From: Candidatus Zixiibacteriota bacterium
GTDB taxonomy: Bacteria; Zixibacteria; MSB-5A5; DSPP01
Assembly (NCBI GenBank): GCA_022614805.1
Contig: JAKEHY010000007.1
Location: forward strand, 1-35,544
Reading direction: 5' to 3'
DNA: 35,544 nt
The translations under genes and the position numbers were made by a program. Position 1 is the first letter of the stretch. Each line of letters starts with the position of its first letter. Positions 2,887 through 18,953 of the stretch are shown piece by piece. A model generated the notes under the pieces. It searched no databases. It saw only the letters and a program-made list of their open reading frames with translations, and was not told where the DNA came from.

Positions 2887-3027
2887 GTAGGGGCGAACCT
2901 CGTATTCGCCCGTAGGGGTTTGATTAATCAAACCCCTACACCAAACCGTAGGGGTGAGGTTTTCCCCCCTTCCCGTTTCGGGCTTGTCCCGAAGCTTGTC
3001 GAGGGGAAGGGTCAGGGGGTTAGGTCA
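2887..3027. repeat. Hairpin repeats, one carrying a type I module
   Basis: 2887-2939 is a GTAGGGG...CCCCTAC pair. 2967-3027 is a CCTTCCCG/CGGGAAGG hairpin followed by TCAGGGGGTTAGG. It is interrupted by a 22-nt type I module at 2983-3004 (starts CTTGTCCCGAAG, ends TCGAGG). The uninterrupted form of the same hairpin is at 19081-19120 and another interrupted one is at 16498-16560. Confidence 0.75.
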
Positions 3028-3039
3028 AAAAAAATCCGG

Positions 3040-3189
3040 CCCCGTCGAAACTATTTCGACGGGGGCGGATGCCTGCAGGGCCACATCCTTGTGGCCGTGT
3101 CAAAAGTTGTGTCGGGAGTTACTCCCGACACGGCGTCAGGAGTAACTCCTGACGCAACAAACCCAAGGCACGGCGTGCCGTGCCCCTAC
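3040..3189. repeat. Array of four different hairpins
   Basis: This stretch between the aquaporin stop and the surface gene holds no gene. It contains CCCCGTCGAA/TTTCGACGGGG at 3040-3065, GGCCAC/GTGGCC at about 3079-3096, a two-hairpin GTTG...CAAC element at 3106-3158 (TGTCGGGAGTTACTCCCGACA then CGTCAGGAGTAACTCCTGACG), and GGCACGGCGTGCCGTGCC at 3167-3184 followed by CCTAC. The 3106-3158 element recurs at 26091 and 26389. Confidence 0.75.
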
Positions 3190-3197
3190 GAAATGAT

Positions 3198-3935
3198 TTA
3201 ACGCCGCACTTGGCGGACGGTCACTTTCGGCTCTTCCCGCTCGGTGAAGGCACCCCAGGAACCGGTCGCGCCGGTGACGGCCCGATGGACAAACGGGGCG
3301 CCGAGGCCGCCGATGATGGGGCCGACCCAGTACAGCCACTGGTTGGTCCAGTTGCCCGAGCCGATGGCCGAACCGAAGGAGCGGGCCGGGTTGAAACCGG
3401 CGCCGGTGAGCGGCCCCGCTACCAGAGTGCAGAACCCGAGCGCGCACCCGACCGCCAGAGGCCCGATGTTCCGGGAAACCCGGTCATCCGTGGTGCAGGC
3501 CAAAACGGTCGTCACGAAAATGCAGGTGAAGAGCGCCTCGATGAAAATCTTGGTCACCAGTCCGATGCGGCCGTCGGCGATGGGGGCTCCCAAAGCGACC
3601 GGCTGCCAGACGTTGGTCGGATAAATCGAGCGCAGAACCAGCCCGGCGATGATGGCGCCGGCCAGCTGGGCAACGATGTAGATGACCGCCGTCTGCGTCG
3701 GAATCCGCCGGGCCGCCCAGTGCCCGATGGTGACCGTGGGGCTGATGTGCCCGCCGGAGACGTGGGTGGTGAAGGCCAAAAGCGCCGTGAAAACGAAGCA
3801 GTTGGCCAAAGCGATGCCGACCCAGGAAACTTCGCCGCGGGTCATTGCGTTGGCGCAGACCACGCCGGCCGCCGTGGCGACGAAAATGAAGCTGGCGACC
3901 AATTCGGTCAGCGCCGGTTTGAACGTTTTCTCCAT
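3198..3935 (-). CDS. Aquaporin/MIP family channel with altered first NPA
   Basis: 245 residues, the usual length for a bacterial aquaporin, with about six hydrophobic segments. It should form a tetrameric inner-membrane pore for water or small neutral solutes. The second half-helix motif is canonical (GAGFNPARSFGSAIG, including the selectivity-filter Arg). The first motif, at about residues 60-70, reads GGHISPTVTIG, so the usual NPA is SPT. The fold and the rest of the family signature (ELVASFIFV near the N-terminus, VAQLAGAI in TM3) are intact, so this is not decay. The start is supported by AGGAGG 4 bases before the ATG. It lies 203 bases downstream of the multicopper oxidase on the same strand, behind a strong terminator, so it probably has its own promoter. 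An AqpZ or TIP-like assignment is not possible by eye. Confidence 0.9.
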   Translation of the reverse strand: MEKTFKPALTELVASFIFVATAAGVVCANAMTRGEVSWVGIALANCFVFTALLAFTTHVSGGHISPTVTIGHWAARRIPTQTAVIYIVAQLAGAIIAGLVLRSIYPTNVWQPVALGAPIADGRIGLVTKIFIEALFTCIFVTTVLACTTDDRVSRNIGPLAVGCALGFCTLVAGPLTGAGFNPARSFGSAIGSGNWTNQWLYWVGPIIGGLGAPFVHRAVTGATGSWGAFTEREEPKVTVRQVRR

Positions 3936-4090
3936 AACCCCTCCTTTTCAAGGTTGGTTTGGGCCGGACGGCAACGGGGGCCGGTTGGATACCGGTCGAA
4001 GGCGAGAGTAAATGCTGCTTGCCCCCCTTACAAGTCCAACCAATTAAGGATTATCGGATGGCGGCCGGAAAACTTAAGCCCCCAAAAAAC

Positions 4091-4124
4091 AACAAGGGAC
4101 GGGCTTTAGAGCCCGTCCCTTGTT
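4091..4124 (-). terminator. Rho-independent terminator after the multicopper oxidase
   Basis: A perfect 15-bp stem, AACAAGGGACGGGCT / AGCCCGTCCCTTGTT, with a 4-base loop. Read on the minus strand it is followed by GTTTTTT. It lies 15 bases beyond the oxidase stop codon and separates that gene from the aquaporin. Confidence 0.9.
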
Positions 4125-4138
4125 TCCCGAAAGCAAAT

Positions 4139-6205
4139 TTACTTTAAGAGGAGCATCCGCTTCGTTTTTTTGAAGTCGGGGGTCTCCAGCCGGTAGAAGT
4201 AGATGCCGCTGGCCACCGACTGGCCGGCTGCATCCCTTCCATCCCACCGGACGGTGTGGTCACCTGCCTCGAGGTTTCCGTTCACCAGTCGGCGGACTTC
4301 CTGTCCGAGAAGGTTGAAGATTCTCAAATCAACGTTCCCGGCATTGGGAAGACGGAAAGCAATCTGCGTTTCGGGATTAAACGGATTGGGATAGTTGCCC
4401 AAGACCGGCTCCGATTTCGCCGCCTGGGCCAAGGCCGCCGGCGCCACCACCATATACGGCCGCATCATATCGTTATCCTCGTGCTCGAGGATGTGGCAGT
4501 GCCAGACGTACCCCGGCTCGGCCGTGGCGTCAAATAAATAGGGGGAGCCATCCTGCGGAGCAAACCGGACAAGCACGCGGGTGACCTCTCCCGGGTTCAT
4601 CCGGAAGGTATCCTTCCAGCCCCGTTCGTTTTCATCCGGCGGCCTGGGCGACCCTTGCAGGTAAGGCCCGACCGGCACGACCGTCGTATGCTCCGCCGGC
4701 AGTTCCGGATTGGCCTCTTCGTAGGCCTCCATATACAGGTTGGTATTGAACGCCTGCCGGTTCAGCATCTGGAATTGCACGAGGTGGATGTGAATCGGAT
4801 GGGCATCCCCGGTGGTGTTGATGATTTCCCACAGCTCCGTGGAACCCAGCTCCGGATATTCGGTGATGCCGGCCATAAACTCCTTGCCATCCAAAAGCGC
4901 CATCAGAGGGCCGTTGGCGCCTTCGATCTCATTCAAGGTCAAGGTTCGGGTCACCGGCCCCGGGGTGAGCGTCGGAATGGTGTTGATGGCCGTAGGAATG
5001 GAACTGTTGTCCGGACCGGAAAGCGGCACCACCCGGAACTGTATAATCTGCCCGACCGTGCGCGGGTCGGACGCCGTGCCCATTGGGAAGGGGGCCTTGG
5101 CATTGTTATCCAAAATAAAGCGGGTTCCCACCGGGATGCCGGAAAAATCAATGATGACATCCGCGCGTTCCCCCGGCGCCAAGAGAAGCCGGCGGCTGTT
5201 CGGGTCGGATGGATTGTTCAGCACCACCGGCGCTGTCAGATACCCCCCGTCCGAGCCAATCTGGTAGAAAGCCGGCCCGCCGCGCAAACGCAGATTGTAA
5301 AACCGGGCGTTGGAGCCGTTCAAAAAGCGGAAGCGGTAGCGGCGCGGCTCCACGTTGAGATAGGGCCAGGCCTTCCCGTTCACCACGATGACGTTGCCGA
5401 AAAATTCCGGCACCCACACCGGGTGTTCGGGGTTGTCCCCCTCGGAGGGATAGAAAAGCTCCCCCTCGTACGTGAACATCCGGTCCTGAATCACGATGGG
5501 AATTTCATACGCCCCGGAGGGGAGATTGAGCGGTCCCTCGAAGGCCGGGTCGCGCAGAAGATAAAATCCCGCCAGTCCGGCATAGACGTTCAAGCGGGTG
5601 ATTCCCATCGCATGGTCGTGATACCAGAGGGTGGTCGGCTCTTGGTTGTTGTGGTAGGTGTATACGTCGTGCACCCATCCCTCCCCTTTTTCCGCATACC
5701 CCTGGGTGAACCACGCCATTGGCCCGCCGTCGCTGCCCGGCTCGGTCTCCCCGCCGTGCAGATGGGCCACCGCCGGCACCCCCGGCCCTTCCGGGTCGGC
5801 CCAGTGCAGGGTGGTGTCGATGGCGTAATCCAAAAGATGGGTGTAGGGGAGGTTGTTGGTCCACTTCACCTGAATGGGCATCCCCCGCACCGCCTCAAAG
5901 GTGGCCCCGGGATAGGAAGCCGTGGCCATAGTTGGCCCGTAGCCCCAGACGGGGGCATACGGCAGCTGGCTGTGGAACCGGTGCATAATCTGCCACATCC
6001 CCACCTCGTAGTAATTCGGGCCGGCCGGCGGCATCACCCCCGGTACGGGGAGCGGGTCCACATACTTGGTCAGACTCAATGGATTGAGCTGGTCCCCCGG
6101 AACCGGCGGCCCCAAAGCCCACAGATTTGTGGCCGCTGAAAAAAGCCAGACGGCGGCGACGAGCAGCGCCACAAAAGCTGTGCAAAACTTTTTAACTCCT
6201 GACAT
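4139..6205 (-). CDS. Secreted multicopper oxidase with C-terminal sorting domain
   Basis: 688 residues from the ATG at 6205, chosen because AGGAGG lies 5 bases upstream and a signal peptide (FCTAFVALLVAAVWLFSAA) follows directly. All four copper motifs are present: HLHG (about residue 146), WYHDHAMG (about 193), HPIHIH (about 467) and HCHILEHEDNDMM (about 567). The last is characteristic of the CotA/bilirubin-oxidase group and includes the type 1 Cys, His and axial Met. It should oxidise phenolic or metal substrates with reduction of O2 to water, outside the cytoplasm. From about residue 601 a FlgD-like Ig/Por sorting domain follows (YPNPFNPETQ, LGQEVRRLV, SGIYFYRLE, ending KRMLLLK), implying type IX-like secretion or surface attachment. 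Upstream on the same strand is a Crp/Fnr regulator, and an FNR-type box lies between the two genes. The natural substrate is unknown. Confidence 0.92.
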   Translation of the reverse strand: MSGVKKFCTAFVALLVAAVWLFSAATNLWALGPPVPGDQLNPLSLTKYVDPLPVPGVMPPAGPNYYEVGMWQIMHRFHSQLPYAPVWGYGPTMATASYPGATFEAVRGMPIQVKWTNNLPYTHLLDYAIDTTLHWADPEGPGVPAVAHLHGGETEPGSDGGPMAWFTQGYAEKGEGWVHDVYTYHNNQEPTTLWYHDHAMGITRLNVYAGLAGFYLLRDPAFEGPLNLPSGAYEIPIVIQDRMFTYEGELFYPSEGDNPEHPVWVPEFFGNVIVVNGKAWPYLNVEPRRYRFRFLNGSNARFYNLRLRGGPAFYQIGSDGGYLTAPVVLNNPSDPNSRRLLLAPGERADVIIDFSGIPVGTRFILDNNAKAPFPMGTASDPRTVGQIIQFRVVPLSGPDNSSIPTAINTIPTLTPGPVTRTLTLNEIEGANGPLMALLDGKEFMAGITEYPELGSTELWEIINTTGDAHPIHIHLVQFQMLNRQAFNTNLYMEAYEEANPELPAEHTTVVPVGPYLQGSPRPPDENERGWKDTFRMNPGEVTRVLVRFAPQDGSPYLFDATAEPGYVWHCHILEHEDNDMMRPYMVVAPAALAQAAKSEPVLGNYPNPFNPETQIAFRLPNAGNVDLRIFNLLGQEVRRLVNGNLEAGDHTVRWDGRDAAGQSVASGIYFYRLETPDFKKTKRMLLLK

Positions 6206-6227
6206 AAATCCTCCTTTCTTACGTACA

Positions 6228-6256
6228 TCGATAACAAGAAAGGAGCTTTGTTCCAA
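6228..6256 (-). promoter_or_regulatory. Predicted promoter of the multicopper oxidase
   Basis: On the minus strand TTGGAA (6256-6251), 17 bases, TATCGA (6233-6228). Predicted start of transcription near 6221, 16 bases before the ATG, with the AGGAGG inside that leader. The FNR-type box would then be centred about 63 bases upstream, close to a class I activation position. Inferred from sequence only. Confidence 0.4.
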
Positions 6257-6276
6257 TGACAGGCGTCAAGCGAAGG

Positions 6277-6292
6277 CTTGACCGCCGTCAAG
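6277..6292. promoter_or_regulatory. FNR/Crp-type operator, TTGA-N6-TCAA
   Basis: CTTGAC-CGCC-GTCAAG is a perfect palindrome matching the TTGA-N6-TCAA consensus of FNR-class regulators. It overlaps the last bases before the stop of the Crp/Fnr gene and stands 72-87 bases before the oxidase ATG. A second, overlapping hairpin (6265-6282, GTCAAGC-GAAG-GCTTGAC) shares one half, so a purely structural role is also possible. Confidence 0.5.
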
Positions 6293-7015
6293 TCAGGGCG
6301 TCAAGGAGGGAACGAGGGTTTTGAGGATGGCGGGGTTTTGGATGAGGATTTCGTTTTTGGTGAGGCGGATTATTCCCTTGCGCGCCAGTCCGTGCAAAAC
6401 GCGGGAGAAGGTTTCCGGCGTGGTGCCAATCATCTCCGCCATTTCCTTGTGCTGGAGGGGAATGCCGGGCGGCCCGCCCCCTTTCCCCGCCGGGCCGGTC
6501 TTTTCGCCGTAACTTTCCTGCAAAAATAAAAGCAGGTGGGCGGCCCTCTGTTTGACGGAAAGGTGGGCCATCTCCACCATTTTTTCTTCGGAGGTGCGCA
6601 ATTCTTTGGCCAGTTTGGCCATAAGCCGCAGGGCCAGATCGCAGGATTCCTGCAAAAGGGCCAGTAGGGTTTGTTTGGAAATGACGCAGACGGTGGTGGC
6701 CTCCAGCGCTTCGGCCGTGGCGGCAAACGGCTCCCCCGCCAGAAGGGCCCGGTAGCCGGTGATTTCTCCGGGACCCATCAGGCGGATGACCAGGGGGTCT
6801 CCCTTGGGGGAGGACTTGTACAGCTTGACCCGGCCGGAATAAATGTGATAGACGGCCAAAGCCGGCGTCCCTTCCTGAAAGACGGTCTGGCCGCGCTCGT
6901 AGCGGTGAACGGCCTTTTCCCGGTCGAGCCGTTCGAGATGTTTGCCGGCCAGGCCGCAGAAGATGGAATGTTCCCGCTGGCCGCAAACCTCGCAGCGAAA
7001 AGTTTCCCGTTTCAT
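6293..7015 (-). CDS. Crp/Fnr-family transcriptional regulator
   Basis: 240 residues with the standard order: N-terminal Cys cluster, cyclic-nucleotide-type beta-roll (about residues 30-120, VFQEGTPALAVYHIYSGRVKL), dimerisation helix, and winged helix (about 170-230). Cysteines at 8, 11 and 20 plus later Cys in VCVISK and ESCDLA could ligate an FeS cluster as in FNR, but the spacing (CxxCx8C) is not identical to E. coli FNR, so redox sensing is an inference. The recognition helix reads TTPETFSRVLHGL; the E..SR pattern is the FNR type that reads TTGA half sites, which fits the box at 6277-6292 just beyond its own stop. The neighbouring oxidase is the obvious target. Gly/Pro-rich residues GKGGGPPG sit in the loop before the helix-turn-helix. 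Confidence 0.9.
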   Translation of the reverse strand: MKRETFRCEVCGQREHSIFCGLAGKHLERLDREKAVHRYERGQTVFQEGTPALAVYHIYSGRVKLYKSSPKGDPLVIRLMGPGEITGYRALLAGEPFAATAEALEATTVCVISKQTLLALLQESCDLALRLMAKLAKELRTSEEKMVEMAHLSVKQRAAHLLLFLQESYGEKTGPAGKGGGPPGIPLQHKEMAEMIGTTPETFSRVLHGLARKGIIRLTKNEILIQNPAILKTLVPSLTP

Positions 7016-7071
7016 CGCCTATTCCCTTGATGAAAATATACGCTATCGGCGGCTGTAAAGGAATCACTTTT

Positions 7072-7080
7072 ATCATACCA
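7072..7080 (-). promoter_or_regulatory. Possible extended -10 promoter of the Crp/Fnr gene
   Basis: On the minus strand TGG-TATGAT forms an extended -10 element about 57 bases before the regulator ATG. No convincing -35 hexamer is visible. Weak call. Confidence 0.3.
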
Positions 7081-7101
7081 ACCTCGCGCTCACAGACGGT
7101 T

Positions 7102-7131
7102 TTGCTTGATTTTAGGCAAAAAGAATTATAT
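7102..7131 (+). promoter_or_regulatory. Predicted promoter of the haloperoxidase-like gene
   Basis: TTGCTT, 18 bases, TTATAT, giving a predicted start near 7138, 85 bases before the ATG at 7223. The sequence TTGATTTTAGGCAA at 7106-7119 inside it differs from TTGA-N6-TCAA by one base, so control by the adjacent Crp/Fnr regulator is possible but unproven. Confidence 0.4.
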
Positions 7132-7222
7132 TGGGATGGGGATGTCTTTGATGAAAACGGTCCGCGCACCGGTTTGAACGGTTGACAAAACCCCTGAATG
7201 CGGGGCTTAAAAGGGAGATTTT

Positions 7223-8638: not shown

Positions 8639-8661
8639 ACGAGCATCCGGCCAAAAAATAA

Positions 8662-8896
8662 ATGGAAGACTGAAGTCTTCCGCCACCGCCAAATACGTTT
8701 AGGTAGCGGAGGTCAAAAGACCTCCATCCTCACATATTGGAAACTCGTTTCAAATTTGGCGTTATCTGCCGCTGCCAAAATGGAAACCTAAAGGTTTCCG
8801 CTGCCCTAAAAAACCTTTGGGCGTAGCGGCTTGTCCCGACTTGTTCCGAGCATAGCCGAGGAAGCATAGTCGAGGGGAGGTCAAAAGACCTCCATT
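8662..8896. repeat. GTAGCGGA-type hairpin pairs, one with a doubled type I module
   Basis: No gene is visible from 8639 to about 9068. 8662-8730 holds two inverted hairpins (ATGGAAGACTGAAGTCTTCC and GTAGCGGAGGTCAAAAGACC, ending TCCAT). 8779-8896 repeats the pattern, but GTAGCGG and AGGTC are now separated by 8830-8877. That insert is a type I module (CTTGTCCCGA ... TAGTCGAGG) containing a second complete 22-nt copy at 8840-8861 (CTTGTTCCGAGC...CCGAGG). The uninterrupted form lies about 100 bases away in the same window. Confidence 0.75.
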
Positions 8897-9068
8897 TCTC
8901 TGCAAACCGTTTCAGGCGGCCTTAAATCGGGAATTTCAACGGCTCTTTCAACCCTATGTAATGCAATTGATTATTCCGCATTTTTTTGAGTCCATTTCAG
9001 GCACGAAGGTTGCGAAAGAGGAGCTTGGAGGGAGCGGCCCGGCTGGTCGGGCATTGGAAAGGAAAATT

Positions 9069-9173
9069 ATGACCGCACGTGAACACCGCAAAAACCTCCT
9101 TCTTCTGGCCGCCGCCATTATCGCGGGGGTGCTTCTTTTGTTGGCGGACAAGGCCGAAGCCTTTTGGCGGTAA
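9069..9173 (+). CDS. Possible 34-residue single-pass membrane protein
   Basis: ATG at 9069 with GGAAAGG 6 bases upstream. The product has a basic start (TAREHRKN), one hydrophobic segment (LLLLAAAIIAGVLLLLA) and a short tail DKAEAFWR. An upstream ATG at 8961 is in frame but without a ribosome site or plausible N-terminus. No family is recognised. It could be a small membrane peptide or a remnant signal sequence. Confidence 0.35.
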   Translation: MTAREHRKNLLLLAAAIIAGVLLLLADKAEAFWR

Positions 9174-9354
9174 GCCCGCTTTCCGGCTGCGCCAGACCTC
9201 GAATTTACTGATTGCCAAAAGCTTGTAACAGTATGACAAAAGTCATTTGACTCTGAAAAAAAAATCATAAATTAATAAACGAGCGGGGAAGTTTTGAAGT
9301 ATAACTTGGTTGCAGGTCTTGGTGGAAAGACCAAAGTTAAACAAAGGAGGTGCT

Positions 9355-9813: not shown

Positions 9814-9864
9814 TTCAAGTTCGTGCTGGCTGGAAGCAACAGGCGAACCAGCCAATCACTTATG

Positions 9865-9898
9865 ACCCCGGTCATTGCTCCAACGGCCGGGGTTTTTT
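9865..9898 (+). terminator. Rho-independent terminator
   Basis: ACCCCGG / CCGGGGT stem followed by TTTTTT, 52 bases after the DUF5666-like lipoprotein stop. Confidence 0.85.
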
Positions 9899-9947
9899 AG
9901 CGTATAAAAAGTTGGTTAACGATAGGAGTGACGCAAAAGGAGGTTGT

Positions 9948-10264: not shown

Positions 10265-10265
10265 G

Positions 10266-10547: not shown

Positions 10548-10595
10548 GGTACAGGTATCGGAAAAATTCCCTCCCCCTTGAACCGATGCGCCCAA

Positions 10596-10732
10596 ACCCG
10601 GCGTTTTTGCGGCATTAAAATGCCGCCTACGGAGGGGGTTCTCTTCATTCGTAGGCCGGGTTTCCCTGGCCGTCCGTACGGACGACTCGGGCAGGCAACC
10701 CGGCGTTCTTGCGGCATTAAAATGCCGCCTAC
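10596..10732. repeat. REP-like pairs, left flank of the RAYT gene
   Basis: 10596-10630 is a partial unit ending GCGGCATTAAAATGCCGCCTAC. After the 20-nt spacer 10631-10650, 10651-10732 is a full unit: GTAGGCCGGGTTT hairpin arm, then AACCCGGC, then GCGGCATTAAAATGCCGC and CTAC. Each unit is two inverted hairpins with GTAG at each outer foot, as in classical REP pairs. The first hairpin carries a 31-nt type II module at 10665-10695 (CCTGGCCGT-CCGTACGG-ACG, then ACTCGGGCAGG). Confidence 0.85.
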
Positions 10733-10761
10733 GAGTGGGAGCCATTCGATTGGCAAAAAAA

Positions 10762-11217
10762 TCAAGCAATTGGGTCGACCAATTCAGACCGGTGGGCTGA
10801 CGAATACGGATATTCTTCCGGTTCCTTCGATAAACCGGCCGTGACCGGATTATACAGGACGTACTGAACCTTCCTTTGGAAATCCCCCTCGTCCCTTATG
10901 GCGTGTTCATAATATCGCTCCTGCCAAACCGGTCCGGAGGCTTTGAGAGATTGGTTTATCAACCGGGCCGATTTGCCTTTCAGTTTTTTCATAATCCCGG
11001 GAAGGGACAATTCGTTTGGTTTTATAATCAGATGCAAATGGTCAGGCATAATCACGAAGGCATATATTTCACAAGATTGGCATTCGCGCAGCTCCTTTAG
11101 GACCGAAAGTAAAATTTCGGTGAGCGAGCCGTTCAGAAACAGCTCTTGGCGGCCGCGGGTGGTAGTGGTGATGAAATACACCAGCTCTTCTTCAATGATA
11201 TGCTTGAGCCTTGCCAT
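10762..11217 (-). CDS. REP-associated tyrosine transposase (RAYT, TnpA-REP type)
   Basis: 151 residues from the ATG at 11217; earlier in-frame codons are translated repeat sequence. It belongs to the Y1/HUH single-strand transposase superfamily: the metal-binding HUH motif is MPDHLHLI (about residues 55-65), and the catalytic Tyr is expected in WQERYYEHAIRD (about 110-122), followed by the usual YVLYNPVTAGL and YPYSS. Known RAYTs cut single-stranded REP DNA next to GTAG-type tetranucleotides and are thought to spread REP sequences. Here the gene is bracketed within about 35 bases on each side by paired hairpins whose feet are GTAG/CTAC. Length is normal for the family and no frameshift is seen, so the enzyme may be active. 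Confidence 0.92.
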   Translation of the reverse strand: MARLKHIIEEELVYFITTTTRGRQELFLNGSLTEILLSVLKELRECQSCEIYAFVIMPDHLHLIIKPNELSLPGIMKKLKGKSARLINQSLKASGPVWQERYYEHAIRDEGDFQRKVQYVLYNPVTAGLSKEPEEYPYSSAHRSELVDPIA

Positions 11218-11235
11218 TATTATAGAATCCTGCTC

Positions 11236-11390
11236 GTAGGCCGGGTTTCCCTGGCCGTAGCCAGAGGCTACGACTCGGGCAGGCAACCCGGCGTCTTTGC
11301 GGCATTAAAATGCCGCCTACGGAGGGGGTTCTCTTCATTCGTAGGCCGGGTTTCAACCCGGCGTTTTTGCGGCATTAAAATGCCGCCTAC
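11236..11390. repeat. REP-like pairs, right flank of the RAYT gene
   Basis: 11236-11320 is a full GTAGGCCGGG...GCCGCCTAC unit with a 34-nt type II module at 11250-11283. The spacer 11321-11340 is identical to the left-flank spacer (GGAGGGGGTTCTCTTCATTC). 11341-11390 is the same unit without the module (GTAGGCCGGGTTTCAACCC, then GGC, GCGGCATTAAAATGCCGCC, TAC). Left and right flanks are therefore near-copies of one composite array. Confidence 0.88.
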
Positions 11391-11401
11391 GAGATTCTCC
11401 G

Positions 11402-14017
11402 CTATTCTTCTTTCACCCGCAACTCTTCCAAGGCCCGTACCAGGCGGGTGTCCGGAAAACGGGAAAGGCGCTCGAAGTTGAAGCCGATGGCTTCCGGCGC
11501 CACCGGCAGCCGGTATTGCTTGCGGCGGTTGTTTTCGATTTCAAAGCGCCGTCCGAGCACCTTCTCCAATTCCTTCTTCAACCGAAAAACAAAACGCCCC
11601 TGCCCCTCTTTTTTCTCGAAGGCATATATGGAAATCCATCCCTCCGGGGCGGTGAAACGCCCCTTCGCCAGGCAGAAAAGATAGTAAAAAAGCTTGGCCG
11701 GAAGAAAAACGTCCGTTCCGTGGACTTTGGCCAGAAAACGGTTTTTGGCCTCTTCCCCGTCAAGATAAACCGAGTACTCCGGCGGCTTTTCTGGCGGCCG
11801 GACGAAGACGAGCCTCTGCTTCGGCTTCACCCCCAAAAGCCGCGCCTTTTGAAAAACGGCCGTGCCGGTCTCAACGCCGAAAAACTCCACAAGCCTTTCC
11901 TGCCCCAAGGCGGCGGCATCTTCGGCTTCGATAAAACCGAAATCGGAAAGCCGGTGAAACTGGTCCCGAAACAAAAACTCGGCAAAGGCGAAAACCAAAT
12001 TTCGCAGCCGGAAGGGCACTCCGTAGCGGGCCTTGAAAGCCAAGGCATCGAGGCGCTCCTCCCAATCGGACGGCAAAGCCAGAAAACGGGCCAAATCCCG
12101 CGCCGTTTCCAGAACCCACGAAGTCCCCTCCGCCCAGAGAAGCAAATCCCCCGCCCCGGCCCGGTATTTCGCTTCAATTTCCCGCAAGGGAATCTTCGAT
12201 TTCCAGTCCTCGAAAAGGGAAAGAAAAAAGAGGGTGCGGGCCGGAAAGGCGAGCCCGGCGGAGACGGAGGCCTCGGCCGCCTCCTCCCAGTTTCCGGAAG
12301 CGGTGGATACCGGCGCGGCACCAGTTGTGGGCATACGGTGACTCCCTTTCAGGGCGGAAAACCGCCCGGCCGCATCGGAAAGTTCGTCCAAAGAATAAAT
12401 CAAATCGAACAGCCGGTCGGCGGAGAGCTCGGTTGCGGTGCTCAAAAAATCGTAGAGCAGGCAGTAACTTTCCACCGAAAATCCGGAAGAAGCCGCCAGC
12501 TTTCCGAGGGGGGTGGGGAAAAACTTCCCCCGCTGGTTTTTCAAAAAGCCGACCGCTTCCAGTTCCCCCGTAATTTCTGAAAGCCGCGCCCCTTCCAGCC
12601 GGCTTTTCGGTTTTTTGAGATAAGTTTTTGAAATTTCATCGGCAGAGGAAACCGCCCCGGAGCTGACTAAATCCAGAACCAGCTCGAGAGTCAGTTCGGA
12701 GGCCGGCAGTTCCGCCCCCCGCTGCCCCCGCAAAACGTAGCGCTGCCAGAAAAGCTCCTTTTCGAGGGGGGAACGGGCGATTAAGATGGCCTTGCCTTCT
12801 TTTTCGAGTCCGAGCCGACCCGCCCGCCCGGCCATGTTTTCATATTCGATGAGTGAAATCGGCTGGGAAATCCATTCGCCCGAGGCCGGCCCTTTCTCAA
12901 ATTTTTCCGAATCGACGAAAACCGTCCCCGCCGGCAGATTCACCCCCCATGCCAGAGTCGAAGTGGCCGCGACCACGCGGATTTCCCCGGAGCGGAAGGC
13001 CTCCTCCACGGCGCGGCGCAAAGGAAAAAGCAAATCGGCGTGGTGAAAGGCGACTCCCCCTTCCAGAACCCGCCAGAGCCGTTCGGCCGAGTTGGAAAAA
13101 AGTCCGGTTTTGATTTTCCCCTTCGCGTTGGAGGCCGGCGGCAATCCGAGGCGGCCCGCCAGCCGCAAGGACAGTTCCTCGCACTCTTTTTTGCTTTTGC
13201 GGAAAACCAGAATCTGCTCCCCTTCGGCCGCCTTTTTTTCTATCGATTTGAGCCAGAGTTCCTCATCCGAAAGTTGTTCCACCTCCGGCCAGCTCTCCTC
13301 TTCCTCTCCGCTTCCGGCGAAGAGTTTGAGCCGCCCTTCCGCCAAAACCCCGCGCTTGAGCGGAACGGGACGGTGGGTGTCCTCCACGTAGCCGCACAAA
13401 AGCCAGCGGGCCAGTTCGGAAAAGTTGGCGACACCGGCGGAGAGAACCACAAGCTGCGGTTTTTTGGGACTTGTCCCGAGCGAAGTCGAGGGATAGGCGA
13501 GATATTTGAAAAAGATTTTTTCCAGAACTTTTCCGCGTTCGGCATCGAGCAGCAATTGGCCTTCATCGACAACCAAGAGTCCCAAAGTCGAAAGAATGTC
13601 CAATTTGCGCACTAATAGTTGATTCAGTTTTTCGTAGATGACCACCGCCAAATCGAAATTCCCTTCCGCCAGAAGGGAATCGGATTGCGGGTGGTCGCGG
13701 GTGGAGAGCAGAACCCGCACCCCCAAATCGGCGTAGCGTTTTTTGAAAGTCGCAACCTTCTCCTCCGCCAGCGCTTTCAACGGCACGGCAAAAATCGTTT
13801 TTTTCCGTTCCTCGATAGCTTTGAGGAACGCCAGCTCGGCCAGAAAGGTTTTTCCGGCGGAAGGGGGGGCCGAAACCCACAGCCGTCGCCCGGCAAAAAG
13901 CCCCTCTTCCAAAACCACACGGGATTGCAAGGGGAGCAAATTCTCCCCCTGTTCTGTTTTGACCCGCTCAAGGAATTGAGGCAAAAGACCGTAACGACCC
14001 AAATCGGAAAGCTTCAT
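11402..14017 (-). CDS. Ski2-like DExH helicase with C-terminal winged-helix-like region
   Basis: 871 residues. Superfamily 2 motifs in order: Q-like LPLQ (28-31), Walker A APPSAGKT (50-57), PLKAL (79-83), motif II VVDEGQ (149-154, DEGQ in place of DEAH/DExH), motif III SAG (193-195), GVAFHHADL (321-329), motif V TSTLAWGVNLPAG (352-364), motif VI MAGRAGRLG (395-403). This order and the HHADL and WGVNLPA motifs are those of Hel308/Ski2 helicases, which unwind DNA or RNA with 3'-5' polarity. Residues about 765-860 (VFLPAKLFYYLFCLAKG ... IENNRRKQYRLPV) look like the winged helix of OmpR-type regulators, which is not usual for Hel308. A type I repeat module encodes residues 176-183 (PSTSLGTS). The gene stands alone between repeats. 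Its substrate is unknown. Confidence 0.85.
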   Translation of the reverse strand: MKLSDLGRYGLLPQFLERVKTEQGENLLPLQSRVVLEEGLFAGRRLWVSAPPSAGKTFLAELAFLKAIEERKKTIFAVPLKALAEEKVATFKKRYADLGVRVLLSTRDHPQSDSLLAEGNFDLAVVIYEKLNQLLVRKLDILSTLGLLVVDEGQLLLDAERGKVLEKIFFKYLAYPSTSLGTSPKKPQLVVLSAGVANFSELARWLLCGYVEDTHRPVPLKRGVLAEGRLKLFAGSGEEEESWPEVEQLSDEELWLKSIEKKAAEGEQILVFRKSKKECEELSLRLAGRLGLPPASNAKGKIKTGLFSNSAERLWRVLEGGVAFHHADLLFPLRRAVEEAFRSGEIRVVAATSTLAWGVNLPAGTVFVDSEKFEKGPASGEWISQPISLIEYENMAGRAGRLGLEKEGKAILIARSPLEKELFWQRYVLRGQRGAELPASELTLELVLDLVSSGAVSSADEISKTYLKKPKSRLEGARLSEITGELEAVGFLKNQRGKFFPTPLGKLAASSGFSVESYCLLYDFLSTATELSADRLFDLIYSLDELSDAAGRFSALKGSHRMPTTGAAPVSTASGNWEEAAEASVSAGLAFPARTLFFLSLFEDWKSKIPLREIEAKYRAGAGDLLLWAEGTSWVLETARDLARFLALPSDWEERLDALAFKARYGVPFRLRNLVFAFAEFLFRDQFHRLSDFGFIEAEDAAALGQERLVEFFGVETGTAVFQKARLLGVKPKQRLVFVRPPEKPPEYSVYLDGEEAKNRFLAKVHGTDVFLPAKLFYYLFCLAKGRFTAPEGWISIYAFEKKEGQGRFVFRLKKELEKVLGRRFEIENNRRKQYRLPVAPEAIGFNFERLSRFPDTRLVRALEELRVKEE
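13470..13491. repeat. Type I module inside the helicase gene
   Basis: The 22-nt core CTTGTCCCGAGC/GAAGTCGAGG lies within the coding sequence, antisense to the gene, and is read as PSTSLGTS just before the strand carrying motif III. The frame is kept. The same core occurs between genes and in two surface-protein genes. Confidence 0.8.
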
Positions 14018-14051
14018 ACTGGTTGGAATATAAAAAATTCGTTTGAAAAAT

Positions 14052-14112
14052 GTAGGGACGAGGTTTCCTCGCCCGGGTGTGGGGGGACAGGGCGGGGAAA
14101 CCCCGCCCGTAC
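14052..14112. repeat. GTAGGG hairpin pair upstream of the helicase
   Basis: GTAGGGACGAGGTTTCCTCG and GGCGGGGAAACCCCGCC hairpins ending CCGTAC, 35 bases before the helicase ATG. A diverged member of the GTAGGGGC family. Confidence 0.65.
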
Positions 14113-14123
14113 AATTTCACAAA

Positions 14124-14200
14124 AAAACAGGGGCGGGTTTCCCTCGACTTTCCTCGTCTGCGCTCGGAACAAGTCGCTCGGGATAAACCAACCCGCTCGG
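14124..14200 (-). terminator. Terminator hairpin with a doubled type I module in its loop
   Basis: Read on the minus strand: GAGCGGGTTGG, a long insert, AAACCCGCCCCTG, then TTTTTTT. The insert (14141-14189) is a type I module (TTTATCCCGAGCGA ... AAAGTCGAGG) with an inner 22-nt copy at 14152-14173. The same terminator stem without insert is at 16563-16596. It follows the 14221-16263 gene. Confidence 0.6.
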
Positions 14201-14220
14201 GCCAACCCTTCCAGATTGAT

Positions 14221-16263
14221 TTAATCCGCGGTTTCTGTAAACCTCATCCAGTTGGTCCCGTTGTAAACACGCAAACCCGGGGTATTATCGGTTTGATAGA
14301 CGGCCATCCCGGCGACAGGAGAGGCAATGGCGTCTCTTTGCGCTTTCGTCATCCGAGACAGCACAAATCCTTTGGTGGTGGATGATAGCTCTAAAATGCT
14401 GGATGCTCCGGGACTCGCCGTCCCGATGCCAACGGCACCTTGCACTAAGAGTCCGGCGTATGGAGCTGTACTCACGCCAGCGTAGGAGGGTCCGATAGCA
14501 ACCCCGCCGTAAACATCCAGCTCGTTTACTGGTGCCGTCGTTCCTATGCCAACCTGCGTTTGCACCAAAAGTCCGCTTGATGGAGCCGTATACGTACCGG
14601 CATAACCATATCCGATAACGGCCCCACCTTGAACATCCAGTTCATTTTTCGGGTTTATCGCTGTTCCGATGCCCACACGGCCGTCATTTCGAACCAGAAA
14701 TCCAGGGGTTCCGACGCCCCAGTTCACACCCAACGCGGCTTCGAGCGGATTCGCGCCGACAGTTGATATACGCAGACCCGCGCCGCTATTGTTTTCGATA
14801 CTAGCGGCATAAGTGCCCGCGGCCGATTTTTGCACGTGCAGCGGATGTGCCGGGACTGTCGTGCCAATGCCAACATTGCCCTGTACCAAAATTCCGTTTA
14901 ATGGAGCCGTAACCGCTCCGGCATATCCGTAGCCGATAACGGCTCCGCCTTTAACATCCAGCACGTTTTGTGGGTTGGTCGTCCCGATGCCGATATTGCC
15001 GGCAACATCGTCTATATACATTCGGGTTGTTCCGCCGGTTTGCAGTCTCAAGGGGCTCAAGCTGGACACGTTGCTTGCAAAGAGAGTATCGGTCACTCTA
15101 ACGTTGCCGGAAAAATTCCCCGCATACCCTTCTGCCGTAGGCGCCGTCGCATAAACTCCATATTTTGTGCCGGTTCCGGTAGTGTCGGTAAAGAAATAAC
15201 CCCCGTACACCGGCCCGGAGATGCCAAAACTGCTACTCCACACCCCGTAGTGCGGCCCGGTGCCGGTTCCGCCGGTGGATACGTTAAAGAATCCGCCATA
15301 AGCATCGCCGGTCGAGCTGTTGTCCGCTTCACCGTAAACGCCGTAAGCCGGATTACCCGAAGCGCTGGAGGCATTCCCTCTAACTCCTGACTTTATTCCC
15401 GTTCCAGCTGAACTGGCGGTGAAAATTCCACCAAAGGCGCTCCCGGTTGAAGAGTTGGAGACAATACCGCTGACACCTTGTTGCGAAGCGGCGCTCGATA
15501 CAGAGTTCAGAACTCCAAGTTTGGCCGTAGGTGTTGTCGTTCCGATGCCGACGTCGCCGTCCGCATCCACGCTTAAAGCCGGATTGGGGTCCAAATCCGA
15601 AGCCGCCAGCGAACTGTGGGGATGCGCGCTGTCCGCCAGCCGCACCCACTGCGCCGCGTGCGCGTAATAGGCGGCCCCTTGATTGTGGGCGTGGGCAAAC
15701 ATACCGTGATACGTGGTGGGGGCTGGGAATGTCGAGACGTCATCATAGTGAAAGCGAATCTTGCTGCTCATTCCGGTGGCGTCTATGGTCCCGTTAACGG
15801 CAAGATTGCTTTGAATGCTGGTGTTGCCGGAAATAGTTCCGCCGGCGGCTCCATCTATCGTTCCTACGCGATAGGCATATCCGACCGATGCCAATCGTTG
15901 CCTGGGAATCATCTCTGGGTCGGTATCTACTTTAATCCCCAGATACCGAACCGTGTCCTCAAATACCGAATCGGGAATCGGATTAGAAGAACCCAGAAGC
16001 ACATTGAATCGGCCTTCATCGGCGATGGTTATCGAAAGGGTCTCCGTCCAAAGCGCGGTGCCCCCGAGGGGATCGTCATAAATCGTAAAGGTTACGTCCA
16101 GCATATCGACCGCCGGTGGATTTCCAGCGGCATCTTTCAATACCCCCTGAAAGTTGATAAGCTGTGGAACGGCCCCCTCGACCGCGCTCGGGACAAGTCC
16201 AAGGACAGTTGCTGCGAGGAATAAAAACATCCCCAATCCGAAAAGAATGATGATGCGTTTCAT
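14221..16263 (-). CDS. Surface-family protein with VGIGTT and pentapeptide-like repeats
   Basis: 680 residues; AGGAG lies 7 bases before the ATG. A signal peptide is followed by VPSAVEG (encoded by a type I module, 16176-16197), then the constant family domain VPQLINFQGVLKDAAGNPP ... DPEMIPRQRLASVGYAYRVG (about 33-135). The middle carries Gly/Ser-rich repeats (YGVYGEAD, GVSGIVSN, GGFFNVSTG). From about 415 there are six VGIGTT blocks, several paired with near-identical lines such as LDVQGGAVIGYGYAG. It ends in SSILELSSTTKGFVLSRMTKAQRDAI and NGTNWMRF, a tail typical of tail-fibre-like proteins without an S74 chaperone. The role is inferred as a fibrous, exported surface protein. Adhesion is possible but not shown. 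Confidence 0.85.
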   Translation of the reverse strand: MKRIIILFGLGMFLFLAATVLGLVPSAVEGAVPQLINFQGVLKDAAGNPPAVDMLDVTFTIYDDPLGGTALWTETLSITIADEGRFNVLLGSSNPIPDSVFEDTVRYLGIKVDTDPEMIPRQRLASVGYAYRVGTIDGAAGGTISGNTSIQSNLAVNGTIDATGMSSKIRFHYDDVSTFPAPTTYHGMFAHAHNQGAAYYAHAAQWVRLADSAHPHSSLAASDLDPNPALSVDADGDVGIGTTTPTAKLGVLNSVSSAASQQGVSGIVSNSSTGSAFGGIFTASSAGTGIKSGVRGNASSASGNPAYGVYGEADNSSTGDAYGGFFNVSTGGTGTGPHYGVWSSSFGISGPVYGGYFFTDTTGTGTKYGVYATAPTAEGYAGNFSGNVRVTDTLFASNVSSLSPLRLQTGGTTRMYIDDVAGNIGIGTTNPQNVLDVKGGAVIGYGYAGAVTAPLNGILVQGNVGIGTTVPAHPLHVQKSAAGTYAASIENNSGAGLRISTVGANPLEAALGVNWGVGTPGFLVRNDGRVGIGTAINPKNELDVQGGAVIGYGYAGTYTAPSSGLLVQTQVGIGTTAPVNELDVYGGVAIGPSYAGVSTAPYAGLLVQGAVGIGTASPGASSILELSSTTKGFVLSRMTKAQRDAIASPVAGMAVYQTDNTPGLRVYNGTNWMRFTETAD
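16176..16197. repeat. Type I module at the signal-peptide junction
   Basis: The 22-nt core in frame encodes LVPSAVEG between the hydrophobic signal core and the mature domain of the 14221-16263 protein. The family member at 1-1158 has no such segment at the same place. Confidence 0.8.
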
Positions 16264-16320
16264 TTTTCGCTCCTTTCTTTAGGCGAATGCCATTCGCCCC
16301 TACGTTTTTTTACGTGTTAT

Positions 16321-16368
16321 TTAACGAAAGAACACAGCCAGCGACTTTAAAACGTTTAACCGTTTCAT
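16321..16368 (-). pseudogene. Decayed 5' end of a third surface-family gene
   Basis: ATG at 16368 with GGGAGG upstream encodes MKRLNVLKSLAVFFR and stops. The gene at 16614-18953 starts MKRLNVFNSLAVFF. The homology continues upstream to about 16497, covering leader and promoter, and matches 18954-19080. This is the promoter and first 14 codons of a family member whose body is gone. The repeat GCGAATGCCATTCGC at 16281-16300 lies beside the break. It may still be transcribed into the 14221-16263 gene. Confidence 0.75.
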
Positions 16369-16458
16369 CGCTACCTCCCTGTTTGTCCCCGCGCTGTGGC
16401 GGAGAACTAAAGGTTTTTTGTAACTACAGCCCGCCCACTCGACTTTGTGGTAAGGTTA

Positions 16459-16488
16459 AACATACCCCTTCTGAAAAGCAGTTGTCAA
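16459..16488 (-). promoter_or_regulatory. Promoter of the decayed gene, possibly driving 14221-16263
   Basis: On the minus strand TTGACA (16488-16483), 18 bases, TATGTT (16464-16459). It has the same spacing as the promoter of the 16614-18953 gene (TTGACA-N18-TATTTT at 19070-19041). Conservation of both hexamers and spacer between the two copies supports the call. Confidence 0.65.
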
Positions 16489-16497
16489 GCGAGGAAT

Positions 16498-16560
16498 CCC
16501 CCTTTCCCGTTTCGGGCTTGTCCCAAGGATATTCGAGGGGAAGGGGGCAAGGGGGTTAGG
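16498..16560. repeat. CCTTCCCG hairpin with type I module
   Basis: CCCTTTCCCGTTTCGGG, a 22-nt type I module at 16517-16538 (CTTGTCCCAAGG...TTCGAGG), then GGAAGGGGGCAAGGGGGTTA. Compare the uninterrupted copy at 19081-19120. Confidence 0.75.
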
Positions 16561-16562
16561 TT

Positions 16563-16596
16563 AAAAAGACAGGGGCGGGTTACCAACCCGCCCCTG
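16563..16596 (-). terminator. Rho-independent terminator of the S74 surface gene
   Basis: On the minus strand CAGGGGCGGGTT, loop GGT, AACCCGCCCCTG, then TCTTTTT, 18 bases after the stop codon at 16614. A 12-bp perfect stem. Confidence 0.88.
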
Positions 16597-16613
16597 CAAT
16601 CAAACGTTAATTC

Positions 16614-18953
16614 CTATTTTCTGACTGCTTGCAGCTTTTCCAACGCCTCGATCCGGGCTTTGAGTTCGGCAACTTCCGCCGTCCGCTCTTCCAGCGCCTG
16701 CACGGCTATCATCAAAATGCCGGCCATATCCCCGGAGTTAAGCGTGGTCTCCGTCCCAATTTTCCCCACGCCGTCATTTCCAAAGGCGGCAAAGAAATCC
16801 TGCGCCACCGGCCCGTAGTGGCGGAACTGTTGGGGGTCGTGCCCCTTGTAGTTCCAGCTGGCGAGGTTAAATCCCCGGAGTTTTCTTAGCACCTCTCCTC
16901 CGTCCACCGGTCGGAAGTTTTCCTTTTGGGCCCGGTCAGAAACGACCGTGAGACCGACTTGGCATTCGAGAACCGTGACTGAACTGTTGCCCAGGCGGAT
17001 TTTGTTGCTGGCGTTCACTATCGCCCCGTTGCCGATGGCGGTGGCGTTGGTCAGGTTGACCAACGAAACATTCGCACCGGCTCCGATGGCGGTGTTGTTG
17101 CTGCCGACGGTGTTGGTTAGGAGCGCACCCTCCCCGCTGGCCGTGTTGCCGCCACCGGTGGTGTTGTTTGTGAGCGCATCGACCCCGCTGGCGGTGTTGC
17201 CGCTGCCGGTGGTGTTGCTTTGGAGTGCGCTCGCCCCGCTGGCGCTGTTGAGGTTACCGGTGGTGTTGCTTTGGAGTGCGCTCGCCCCGCTGGCGGTGTT
17301 GAAGTTTCCGGTGGTGTTGAACTGGAGCGCGCCGGTCCCGCTGGCCGTGTTGTTGCTGCTGACTGTCGTCAGGTTGCCGGCATTGCGGCCGATGAAGGTA
17401 TTGTCCGTGCCGAAATTGTGGATGAAAGGTACGCCCCCCTTCAGAATATTGCCCGCCGACGCCGTGGAATTTTCAAGATTGAAATTCCCCCCGGCAACAT
17501 CCAGCTTGCTGGCCGGGCTCACTGTTCCGATGCCGACATTATCCCCCAAGGTAGTAAGCCGGACCACGCCACCGCCGTCCGTCCAACCACCACCACTTGA
17601 TACCGCCGTAGTTTGCAAAGTGCCATCGGGAAATTTGATGCCATCTACACCGGCTGTTCCGCCGATGTGGAGTTTTGCAGTCGGACTTTCCGTCCCGATA
17701 CCGACGTTGCCGGTGGCGTCGTCAATATGCATCCGGGTCGTGCCGGCAGGGGCTTGAAAGGAAAGCGGGCTGTTAGAGGAAAGGTTGCTGGTAAACACGG
17801 TGTCGTCAGCGCCGACCTTGATGTTACCATCCGTTTCAACGAGCATGACGGCGCTGTTCCCCAGGCGGATTTTGTTGCTGGCGTCCACTACCGCCCCGCT
17901 GCCGATGGCCGTGGCGTTGGTCAGGTCGCCCGCCGAAACATCTGCTTGGTATCCTATCGCGGTGTTGTTGCTGCCGGTGGTGTTGCTGAAGAGCGCATTG
18001 GTCCCGACGGCGGTGTTGTCGTTGCCGGTGGTGTTGCTGAAGAGCGTTTGATGCCCGCTGGCGGTATGGTTGTTGCCGGTGGTGTTGCTGAAGAGTGCCC
18101 GGTACCCGTTGGCGGTGTTGTTGAAGGCGGTGGTGTTACTTTGGAGCGCAAAGGCCCCGCTGGCGGTGTTGAAGTTGCCGGTGGTGTTGCTTACGAGCGC
18201 ATAGGCCCCGCTGGCGGTGTTGTTGATGCCGGTGGTGTTGTTCCGGAGCGCACTGTACCCGCCGGCAGTGTTTTCGAAGCCGGTGTTGACCCAGAGCGCA
18301 TAAGCCCCGCTGGCGGTATTCCAGGCGCCAATGGTGTTGCCTGAGAGCGCATAGGCCCCATTGGCGGTATTGTTGAAGCCGATAGTGTTGAATAGGAGCG
18401 CACCGGCCCCGCTGGCGGTGTTGTTGAAGCCGATGGTGTTGCTTTGGAGCGCCGACGTCCCAATGGCAGTGTTAAAGCCGTCACCGGTTGTCGTCAGGTT
18501 GCCGGCATTGCGGCCGACGAAGGTATTGTCCGTGCCGAAATTGGGGATGAAATGTGCGACTCGGAGAGAATAGGCCACCGACACCAACTGCTGCCTCGGC
18601 GTCATCTCCGGGTCGGCACTGACTTTAGTCCCCAACCAGCGGTTCGCGTTATTAAAAGCGGAATCGGGAACCGGGTTCAGCGAACCCAAAAGAACTGTGA
18701 AAAGCCCGCTGGTGGTAGTTACAGAAGTTGTTTCTGCCCACTGAACAGCTCCTCCGACCGGGGCATCGTAGATGGTGAAAACGACGGAATACGAGCCGTC
18801 CGCCACCGGATTGCCGGAACCATCCCGCAGAACCCCCTGAAAGTTGATGAGCTGGGGAACGCTTCCCTCGACTGCGCTCGGGATAAACCCCGATACCATC
18901 ATTGAAAAAACAAAAAAAACTGCCAGCGAGTTGAAAACGTTTAACCGTTTCAT
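16614..18953 (-). CDS. YadA-head-like surface protein with S74 chaperone domain
   Basis: 779 residues; GGGAGG precedes the ATG. A signal peptide is followed by IPSAVEG (type I module, 18866-18887) and the family constant domain (VPQLINFQGVLRDGSGNPV ... DPEMTPRQQLVSVAYSLRV). Then two blocks of 17-residue repeats of the form NTASGx.AL..NTTGxx, about nine units near residues 155-315 and about five near 525-605, resembling YadA/Hia head repeats. VGIGTESP and VGIGTVSP links lie between them. Residues about 671-760 are an intramolecular chaperone/peptidase S74 domain (SDRAQKENFRPVDGGEVLRK, HYGPVAQDFF) with the Ser and Lys of the self-cleavage site. A coiled coil ends the chain (EERTAEVAELKARIEALEK). 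S74 domains drive trimer folding and then cut themselves off, so a trimeric fibre is expected. It is the only one of the four paralogs here with a visible S74 domain. Confidence 0.88.
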   Translation of the reverse strand: MKRLNVFNSLAVFFVFSMMVSGFIPSAVEGSVPQLINFQGVLRDGSGNPVADGSYSVVFTIYDAPVGGAVQWAETTSVTTTSGLFTVLLGSLNPVPDSAFNNANRWLGTKVSADPEMTPRQQLVSVAYSLRVAHFIPNFGTDNTFVGRNAGNLTTTGDGFNTAIGTSALQSNTIGFNNTASGAGALLFNTIGFNNTANGAYALSGNTIGAWNTASGAYALWVNTGFENTAGGYSALRNNTTGINNTASGAYALVSNTTGNFNTASGAFALQSNTTAFNNTANGYRALFSNTTGNNHTASGHQTLFSNTTGNDNTAVGTNALFSNTTGSNNTAIGYQADVSAGDLTNATAIGSGAVVDASNKIRLGNSAVMLVETDGNIKVGADDTVFTSNLSSNSPLSFQAPAGTTRMHIDDATGNVGIGTESPTAKLHIGGTAGVDGIKFPDGTLQTTAVSSGGGWTDGGGVVRLTTLGDNVGIGTVSPASKLDVAGGNFNLENSTASAGNILKGGVPFIHNFGTDNTFIGRNAGNLTTVSSNNTASGTGALQFNTTGNFNTASGASALQSNTTGNLNSASGASALQSNTTGSGNTASGVDALTNNTTGGGNTASGEGALLTNTVGSNNTAIGAGANVSLVNLTNATAIGNGAIVNASNKIRLGNSSVTVLECQVGLTVVSDRAQKENFRPVDGGEVLRKLRGFNLASWNYKGHDPQQFRHYGPVAQDFFAAFGNDGVGKIGTETTLNSGDMAGILMIAVQALEERTAEVAELKARIEALEKLQAVRK
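17000..17390. repeat. 51-bp coding repeats, distal head block
   Basis: About five 51-bp units (17 residues, N-T-A-S-G core) within the S74 surface gene. Neighbouring units are strongly similar at DNA level (GGTGGTGTTGCTTTGGAG recurs), so copy number may change by slippage or recombination. Confidence 0.7.
17950..18495. repeat. 51-bp coding repeats, proximal head block
   Basis: About nine units of the same 17-residue repeat; one unit near residue 200 is 16 residues. The DNA is marked by GCCGGTGGTGTTGCTGAAG in several copies. Confidence 0.7.
18866..18887. repeat. Type I module at the signal-peptide junction
   Basis: A core variant (TTTATCCCGAGCGCAGTCG, then AGG) in frame encodes FIPSAVEG at the same position as in the 14221-16263 protein. 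Confidence 0.8.

Follow-up and report, generated by a model that had tools for sequence, protein, structure and literature searches.

A 24-nt hairpin repeat with the features of a small, precisely inserting mobile element in a Zixibacteria genome

Copies of the repeat in the window

This study concerns a short hairpin repeat, probably mobile, in a 35,544-nt stretch of DNA from Candidatus Zixiibacteriota bacterium (contig JAKEHY010000007.1, positions 1 to 35,544, assembly GCA_022614805.1), referred to below as the window. A preliminary description, made from the sequence letters alone, had noted a 22-nt core recurring between positions 2983 and 18887 and had proposed that a module of constant length interrupts hairpins that also exist uninterrupted in the same genome. 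All of the copies it named were found, at the same positions or within 1–2 nt of them, and in both orientations. The idea of a constant module with filled and empty hairpins was also right, but hairpins proved to be only one of several types of target, and the unit was longer than had been thought.

The copy CTTGTCCCGAAGCTTGTCGAGGGG (2983–3006, forward strand) lies within a CCCTTCCC..GGG^AAGGG hairpin (^ marks the point of insertion), and a diverged copy, CTTGTCCCAAGGATATTCGAGGGG (16517–16540, forward), lies in a CTTTCCC..GGG^AAGGGG hairpin; the uninterrupted hairpin CCCTTCCCGCTTCGGGAAGGG (19081–19120, forward) is the empty partner of both. Two places that had been listed as double sites, 8830/8840 and 14141/14152, are indeed present, but each consists of one copy inserted into another, a relationship that had been overlooked. 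At the first, the outer copy CTTGTCCCGA^GCATAGTCGAGGGG (8830–8877, forward) is split by the inner copy CTTGTTCCGAGCATAGCCGAGGAA (8840–8863, forward), and the pair lies within GTAGCGG^AGGTC, with the uninterrupted form GTAGCGGAGGTC..GACCTCC at 8703–8727 (forward) as its empty partner. At the second, the outer copy TTTATCCCGAGCGA^AGTCGAGGGA (14140–14187, reverse) is split by CTTGTTCCGAGCGCAGACGAGGAA (14150–14173, reverse) in the loop of a GCGGGTT/AACCCGC hairpin. The empty partners suggested earlier were real: once a few bases that are substituted or vary in number are set aside, those at 19081–19120 and 8703–8727 differ from the filled sites by clean insertions of 24 and 48 nt, and the hairpin GGGGCGGGTTACCAACCCGCCCC (16563–16596, forward) fits the site at 14124–14200 except for small differences in loop and arms.

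The remaining three copies, contrary to the view that every site is a hairpin, are inside open reading frames (ORFs). One (13470–13493, forward) adds eight amino acids in frame to a DEAD/DEAH helicase of 871 amino acids (11405–14017, reverse), within the DEAD domain (amino acids 175–183 of a domain spanning 39–197). The other two lie in frame near the N-termini of ORFs 14224–16263 (copy at 16174–16197, reverse, directly ahead of the sequence AVPQLINFQG) and 16617–18953 (copy at 18864–18887, reverse, with a TTTA tag), at the same position in both proteins.

Length, structure and nesting of the unit

Chance as the origin of the 24-mers was tested by scanning the genome with the pattern CTTGTCCYGAGCNNNGTCGAGG, allowing up to two mismatches, and with the reversed pattern as a control. 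The 2.56 Mb draft genome gave 78 matches, 39 on each strand, and the reversed pattern gave none, which excludes chance. When about 340 kb of this genome was examined for copies defined by structure, 97 were obtained, with none in the reversed sequence.

The unit measures exactly 24 nt: a tag of 4 nt (CTTG in most copies) and, after it, an imperfect hairpin of 20 nt in which a 4-bp stem of variable sequence pairs around an invariant core. Its general layout is YTTR-(4-nt stem)-GAGC-NNN-GTCGA-(stem'), with the consensus YTTR-TCCC-GAGC-NNN-GTCGA-GGGR in this genome; positions 5–8 pair with positions 21–24, and the GAGC...GTCGA core can hold two G.A oppositions and a small loop at the apex. Pairing of the stem was evaluated in 108 distinct 24-mers from the GTDB stretches described below, retrieved without regard to the stem, a sample that still includes non-independent copies: 88% of the pairs were Watson–Crick, compared with 45% (at most 51%) after shuffling, and 21 different perfect stems were represented. 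G.T pairs (28) were more frequent than A.C pairs (7), which suggests folding of the CTTG strand rather than its complement. Among 108 copies the tags included CTTG (74), CCTG (14) and TTTA (8), and GTAG or CGTC did not occur. The idea that the 24-mer is free of stop codons in all six frames was only partly borne out (42 of 86 distinct copies), and a literature search with the letters of the core returned matches only in unrelated primer papers.

The length was determined by deleting each copy at lengths from 21 to 27 nt, rejoining the flanks and looking for further copies in the joined sequence. With 24 nt removed, nine complete outer copies appeared, then one, then one more at a fourth level, whereas removal of 21, 22, 23, 25, 26 or 27 nt exposed none. 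The deepest nest in this genome (L058, 1965–2060) measures 96 nt, or 4 x 24. The same operation exposed eight nested copies in related genomes, against none at other lengths, and 74 first-level copies in 80 loci from GTDB genomes, against 0–1 at other lengths; these 80 loci had been chosen by a nested pattern that itself assumes 24 nt, and 18 of the exposed copies lie outside that selection. A nest six deep (L173; 144 nt, or 6 x 24) was present in a cyanobacterium. Self-insertion occurred after nucleotide 10 or after nucleotides 12–14 of the copy that was entered. At two loci (L227 and L255) 24-mers directly abut head to tail, which implies that the element can insert not just into its loop but also at its own edge.

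Empty sites

Removal of 22, 23, 24, 25 or 26 nt was also followed by a search for an exact match of 16–22 nt elsewhere in the examined sequence. After removal of 24 nt an exact empty partner was found for 24 of the 97 copies, compared with 0, 0, 1 and 0 after removal of 22, 23, 25 and 26 nt; examples of the empty junctions are GCCGACACTTT^AGTGTCGGAAA, GGGGCGAGGCA^TGCCTCGCCCT and CCTCCCCTTGA^GGGGAGGGATT. Thus the constant 22 nt given previously has to be replaced by 24 nt, the only length at which excision exposed nested outer copies together with more than an isolated exact partner.

The preliminary description had also raised the matter of target duplication. A reading as 22 nt plus a 2-nt repeat is possible for 34 of the 97 copies, where shuffled sequences gave a mean of 20 and a maximum of 32. 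As a general rule, however, 22 nt plus duplication was ruled out, because several exact empty sites exclude a duplication.

Insertions in protein genes

Insertion in frame into genes, like self-nesting, had gone unnoticed in the preliminary description. By that description, its proposal would be refuted if orthologous sites never varied between strains or if their flanks proved non-homologous. The proposal passed this test in a comparison with one genome of the same genus (G001): the two genomes differ at such sites, the flanks being homologous and the gaps measuring exactly 24 or 48 nt. The ortholog of the helicase (87% amino-acid identity) lacks exactly the 24 nt at 13470, and the eight inserted residues are absent from all 11 homologs within the class. 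In a GAF/response-regulator gene a nested pair corresponds to an exact 48-nt gap in the relative, and in a methyltransferase–MTHFR gene a copy between the two domains corresponds to an exact 24-nt gap. An insertion of 24 nt keeps the reading frame, and further copies were seen in ORFs with cytidylyltransferase, TonB-receptor, ribonucleotide-reductase and radical-SAM domains. One copy, in an M1-peptidase-like gene (L061), is common to both genomes, with no empty allele, and so is either older or coincidental; for the intergenic hairpin site L009:2001 no alignment to G001 was obtained. Insertions of this kind would explain recurrent eight-amino-acid in-frame inserts in bacterial proteins, such as LVPSEVEG, PSTSLGTS, SLDYARDK and CPERSRG.

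The two ORFs of the window with N-terminal copies (14224–16263 and 16617–18953) belong to a paralogous family of secreted proteins, also represented at L020, L031 and L053, whose members have the 24-mer in common just after the signal peptide (LVPSxVEG-AVPQLINFQG). This insertion is probably older than the gene duplications.

Insertion targets

In this genome 24 of 96 insertion junctions lay in a hairpin scoring at least 7, where 0.65 would be expected. In 20 of these 24 the 3' arm begins immediately after the insert and the loop bases remain on the left, a polarity suggesting that one folded strand is recognised. The interrupted hairpins number more than a dozen unrelated ones, including repetitive extragenic palindromic (REP) sequences of the GTAG type, GTAGCCGACACTTTAGTGTCGG and GTAGCCTCGACTTCAGTCGAGG; uninterrupted forms of these two lie around a RAYT transposase gene of the genome (L001). 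G012, a genome from a different family of the class with 69 copies, has the matching geometry at the loop edge (AACCTCTCcctccgg^GAGAGGT). The rule is not absolute, as in the CTTCCCGTTTCGGG^AAGG family (2983 and 16517 in the window) the insert lies a few bases into the 3' arm.

Tandem heptamer arrays were the target of none of the 96 copies of this genome. In other phyla, 12 of 137 outer copies lay in 7-nt tandem arrays, compared with 0.4 expected, and the period was essentially 7 only. Arrays of this kind (TCGTCCG, ATGAGGG) contained 24-mers at loci L114 and L144 (Omnitrophota) and L165 (Desulfuromonadales), in unrelated lineages, and likewise in Nostoc.

Distribution

The preliminary description had suggested scanning the genome and related bins with a profile of the 22-mer. 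In addition to the genomic matches given above, 13 of 58 related genomes had matches. Copy numbers in these 58 ranged from 0 to 69 and did not closely follow kinship. For GTDB genomes a nested pattern was used in which tag and stem were left free (GAGCGA-N8-GAGC-NNN-GTCGA-N4-AGTCGA), with an estimated 0.1 or so chance matches over the whole collection. It retrieved at least 118 stretches. Those listed include Cyanobacteria (Nostoc, Anabaena, Brasilonema, Sphaerospermopsis), Bacteroidota (among them Polaribacter, Flagellimonas, Algoriphagus and Saprospiraceae), Elusimicrobia, Omnitrophota, Desulfuromonadales, several Parcubacteria-type lineages of the candidate phyla radiation (CPR), Planctomycetes and Spirochaetota. 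In 2.9 million viral contigs there were no nested matches and four single ones; spread on phages was rejected, as viral contigs hold almost no matches.

Relation to known repeats

The preliminary description knew of no described mechanism for such a repeat. A close described analogue does exist in the small dispersed repeats (SDRs) of Nostoc, but their mechanism is likewise not established. Elhai and colleagues are said to have described in 2008 eight families, SDR1–8, of 21–27 nt in Nostoc punctiforme and its relatives. These reportedly form hairpins with compensatory changes in the stem, insert into their own copies and, in some families, lie within tandem heptamers, and they were reported from only a subgroup of cyanobacteria. 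By that description the repeat studied here resembles SDRs in length (24 nt) and abundance (97 copies), in its hairpin of variable sequence with compensatory changes, and in its self-nesting, up to four levels in its own genome and six in the cyanobacterium. The heptamer arrays reported for some SDR families were seen in Nostoc, Omnitrophota and others and not in the genome studied here. The nested pattern retrieved Nostoc copies that fit the description of SDRs, several of which have 7-nt arrays at their flanks; the copies from Nostoc, Anabaena, Brasilonema and Sphaerospermopsis therefore seem to be elements of the SDR kind. Unlike SDRs as reported, the element is also present in a distantly related lineage and in many further phyla, is found at the 3' edge of hairpin loops, REPs included, and in frame in conserved genes, and has main carriers that lack the reverse transcriptase domain RVT_1. 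The SDR work (Elhai et al., 2008, Genome Res 18:1484) is cited, with its subject, in PMC3116915 and PMC2884548.

REPs and REPINs are associated with RAYT transposases and fall into GTAG and CGTC superfamilies (Di Nocera et al., 2013, PMC3733652; Bertels and Rainey, 2011, PMC3116915). The element is similar to them in being a short tagged hairpin of high copy number that is non-autonomous, but its tag is CTTG, it was not found around RAYT genes, it nests in itself with a fixed 24-nt unit, and GTAG-REPs are its targets. In a related case that concerns other repeats, some REPs have been noted within small palindromes into which they had inserted (Di Nocera et al., PMC3733652). REP sequences are also targets of insertion sequence (IS) elements (PMC1525189), which share this choice of target but are full elements with their own transposase. 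Rickettsia palindromic elements (RPE) are likewise short, palindromic and inserted in frame in conserved protein genes (PMC10969869), as the element is at three orthologous empty sites; they differ in measuring about 100–150 bp, in having neither a 24-nt unit nor self-nesting, and in lineage. The terminal inverted repeats and fixed target-site duplication of a miniature inverted-repeat transposable element (MITE) or other derivative of a classical transposon were not seen.

Interpretation and alternative explanations

This repeat is probably a non-autonomous mobile element of SDR type, exactly 24 nt long, which inserts precisely, without loss and without general duplication of the target. Comparison of sequences shows that insertion is precise and repeated, that copies nest, that the unit is 24 nt, that the stem pairs and that the 3' edge of the target loop is favoured. 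Sites of insertion would be DNA able to form a hairpin loop, including RAYT-type REPs, the loops of earlier copies of the element and, more rarely, genes. As 24 nt leave no room to encode anything, the factor that moves the element would have to act in trans. Such a factor may recognise the CTTG strand, folded, in the form of single-stranded nucleic acid, and would join it at the junction of loop and 3' arm of a folded target strand, for instance at replication forks.

Several observations weigh against this interpretation or restrict it. Matches of end bases are slightly over-represented (60 of 97 copies at 1 nt and 34 of 97 at 2 nt), so that a duplication of 1–2 nt is possible at a subset of sites. 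About three quarters of the copies have no clear hairpin target, and some are in coding DNA or adjoin GGGG^TGAGG repeats. As targets in other phyla include 7-nt tandem arrays rather than hairpins, loop targeting may be specific to the lineage studied here. By itself the 24-mer has only a weak DNA fold (-1.8 kcal/mol). Some of the multiplication may have been that of composites, in several filled hairpins, and the 97 copies are therefore not 97 independent insertions. Finally, the data are comparative, and no movement and no excised or circular form has been observed.

The arrangement of tag and hairpin, a size near 20–40 nt and the lack of general duplication would also fit a Y1-type system, in which the element is a REP, with CTTG replacing the GTAG tag, moved by the RAYT (Y1/HUH) transposases of the genome. 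Y1_Tnp genes are present in the carriers G000, G001, G002, G003 and G012, but Y1 transposase genes occur in nearly all of the relatives, whether or not they carry the element, and the numbers of RAYT genes and elements were not correlated across the 58 genomes (Spearman -0.04, p 0.75). At 24 RAYT loci the recognisable repeats, where there were any, were GTAG/GGAG hairpins; a canonical 24-mer lay within about 1.5 kb of only one of them (at about 0.8 kb), itself inserted in a GTAG hairpin, and in the genome studied here GTAG-REPs serve the element as targets. We therefore regard this origin as unlikely. Slightly less likely again is movement through an RNA copy followed by reverse transcription, a route that Elhai and colleagues reportedly suggested for SDRs. 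An excess of G.T over A.C pairs in the stem (28 against 7) is what would be expected if the CTTG strand folds as RNA, although single-stranded DNA also holds G.T pairs. The RVT_1 domain (PF00078) was not found in G000 (93% complete), G001, G002 or G012 (100% complete, 69 copies), and its absence from these main carriers speaks against an RNA copy, unless the enzyme has been lost or missed. With neither correlation nor association with RAYT genes, and with RVT_1 absent from the main carriers, we favour an intermediate of folded single-stranded DNA, joined by a predicted enzyme.

Explanations that dispense with mobility altogether are less probable still. Ordinary hairpin repeats that underwent tandem duplication, gene conversion or template switching could produce copies that are directly adjacent (L227, L255) and composites that recur, such as GTAGCGG^48^AGGTC. 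Conversion or slippage would not, however, yield a fixed unit whose ends are conserved and whose stem covaries wherever it lies, at sites that are unrelated. Here one 24-nt unit breaks into unrelated hairpins, more than a dozen of them, into genes and into its own copies, exact empty alleles are present, and three genes have exact empty orthologs of 24 or 48 nt; we hold this reading to be very improbable. Marginally more improbable still is that the 24-mers are conserved functional signals, such as terminators, protein-binding sites or RNA motifs, maintained by selection. The strong conservation of core and stem pairing is in keeping with that idea, but copies occur in both orientations, within unrelated genes and within one another, the helicase insertion, the best studied, is missing from all 11 homologs, and Rfam had no family matching the copies of the window.

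Mobility of the 24-nt hairpin would place it among the smallest apparent mobile DNA elements. We suggest tentatively, and leaning a little towards doubt, that there is a superfamily of 24-nt mobile hairpins, found in many phyla and having an invariant GAGC-NNN-GTCGA core, which parasitises REPs and its own copies, with a predicted enzyme that pastes the folded strand at the junction of loop and 3' arm. If so, it would be the smallest known transposing unit, moved by a reaction not described so far, and a hidden and widespread joining reaction on folded nucleic acid would be implied; a gene-less sequence of 24 nt multiplying in trans across phyla would likewise put a lower bound on the size of mobile DNA. 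Four points appear to be new: the wide range of phyla, the polarity at hairpin loops where REPs serve as targets, the excision tests that are exact in length, and the in-frame insertions with orthologous empty sites. Such a length-exact test, the removal of 24 nt, offers a simple way to date and map insertions in any genome, and the polarity at the loop edge, the choice of targets and the lack of a reverse transcriptase in the main carriers make SDR movement directly testable.

Other features of the window

A RAYT-like Y1 transposase gene (10762–11286, reverse) has GTAG-tagged REP hairpins, GTAGGCGGCATTTTAATGCCGC and GTAGGCCGGGTTTCAACCCGGC, on both sides (10595–11424), the classical REP/RAYT layout; the 24-nt element is not at its flanks, and a role of this gene in mobilising it is not favoured. 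Another hairpin repeat, GCGTCAGGAGTTACTCCTGACGC, occurs at 3106–3160, 26089–26116 and 26389–26414 without a 24-nt insert. Two large repeat-rich ORFs lie at 20557–22932 and 27991–30720; Pfam matches give at least 13 FG-GAP-like repeats in the first, and its DNA repeats recur in the second. A multicopper oxidase is encoded at 4139–6256, and its C-terminus weakly matches the sorting tails of type IX secretion.

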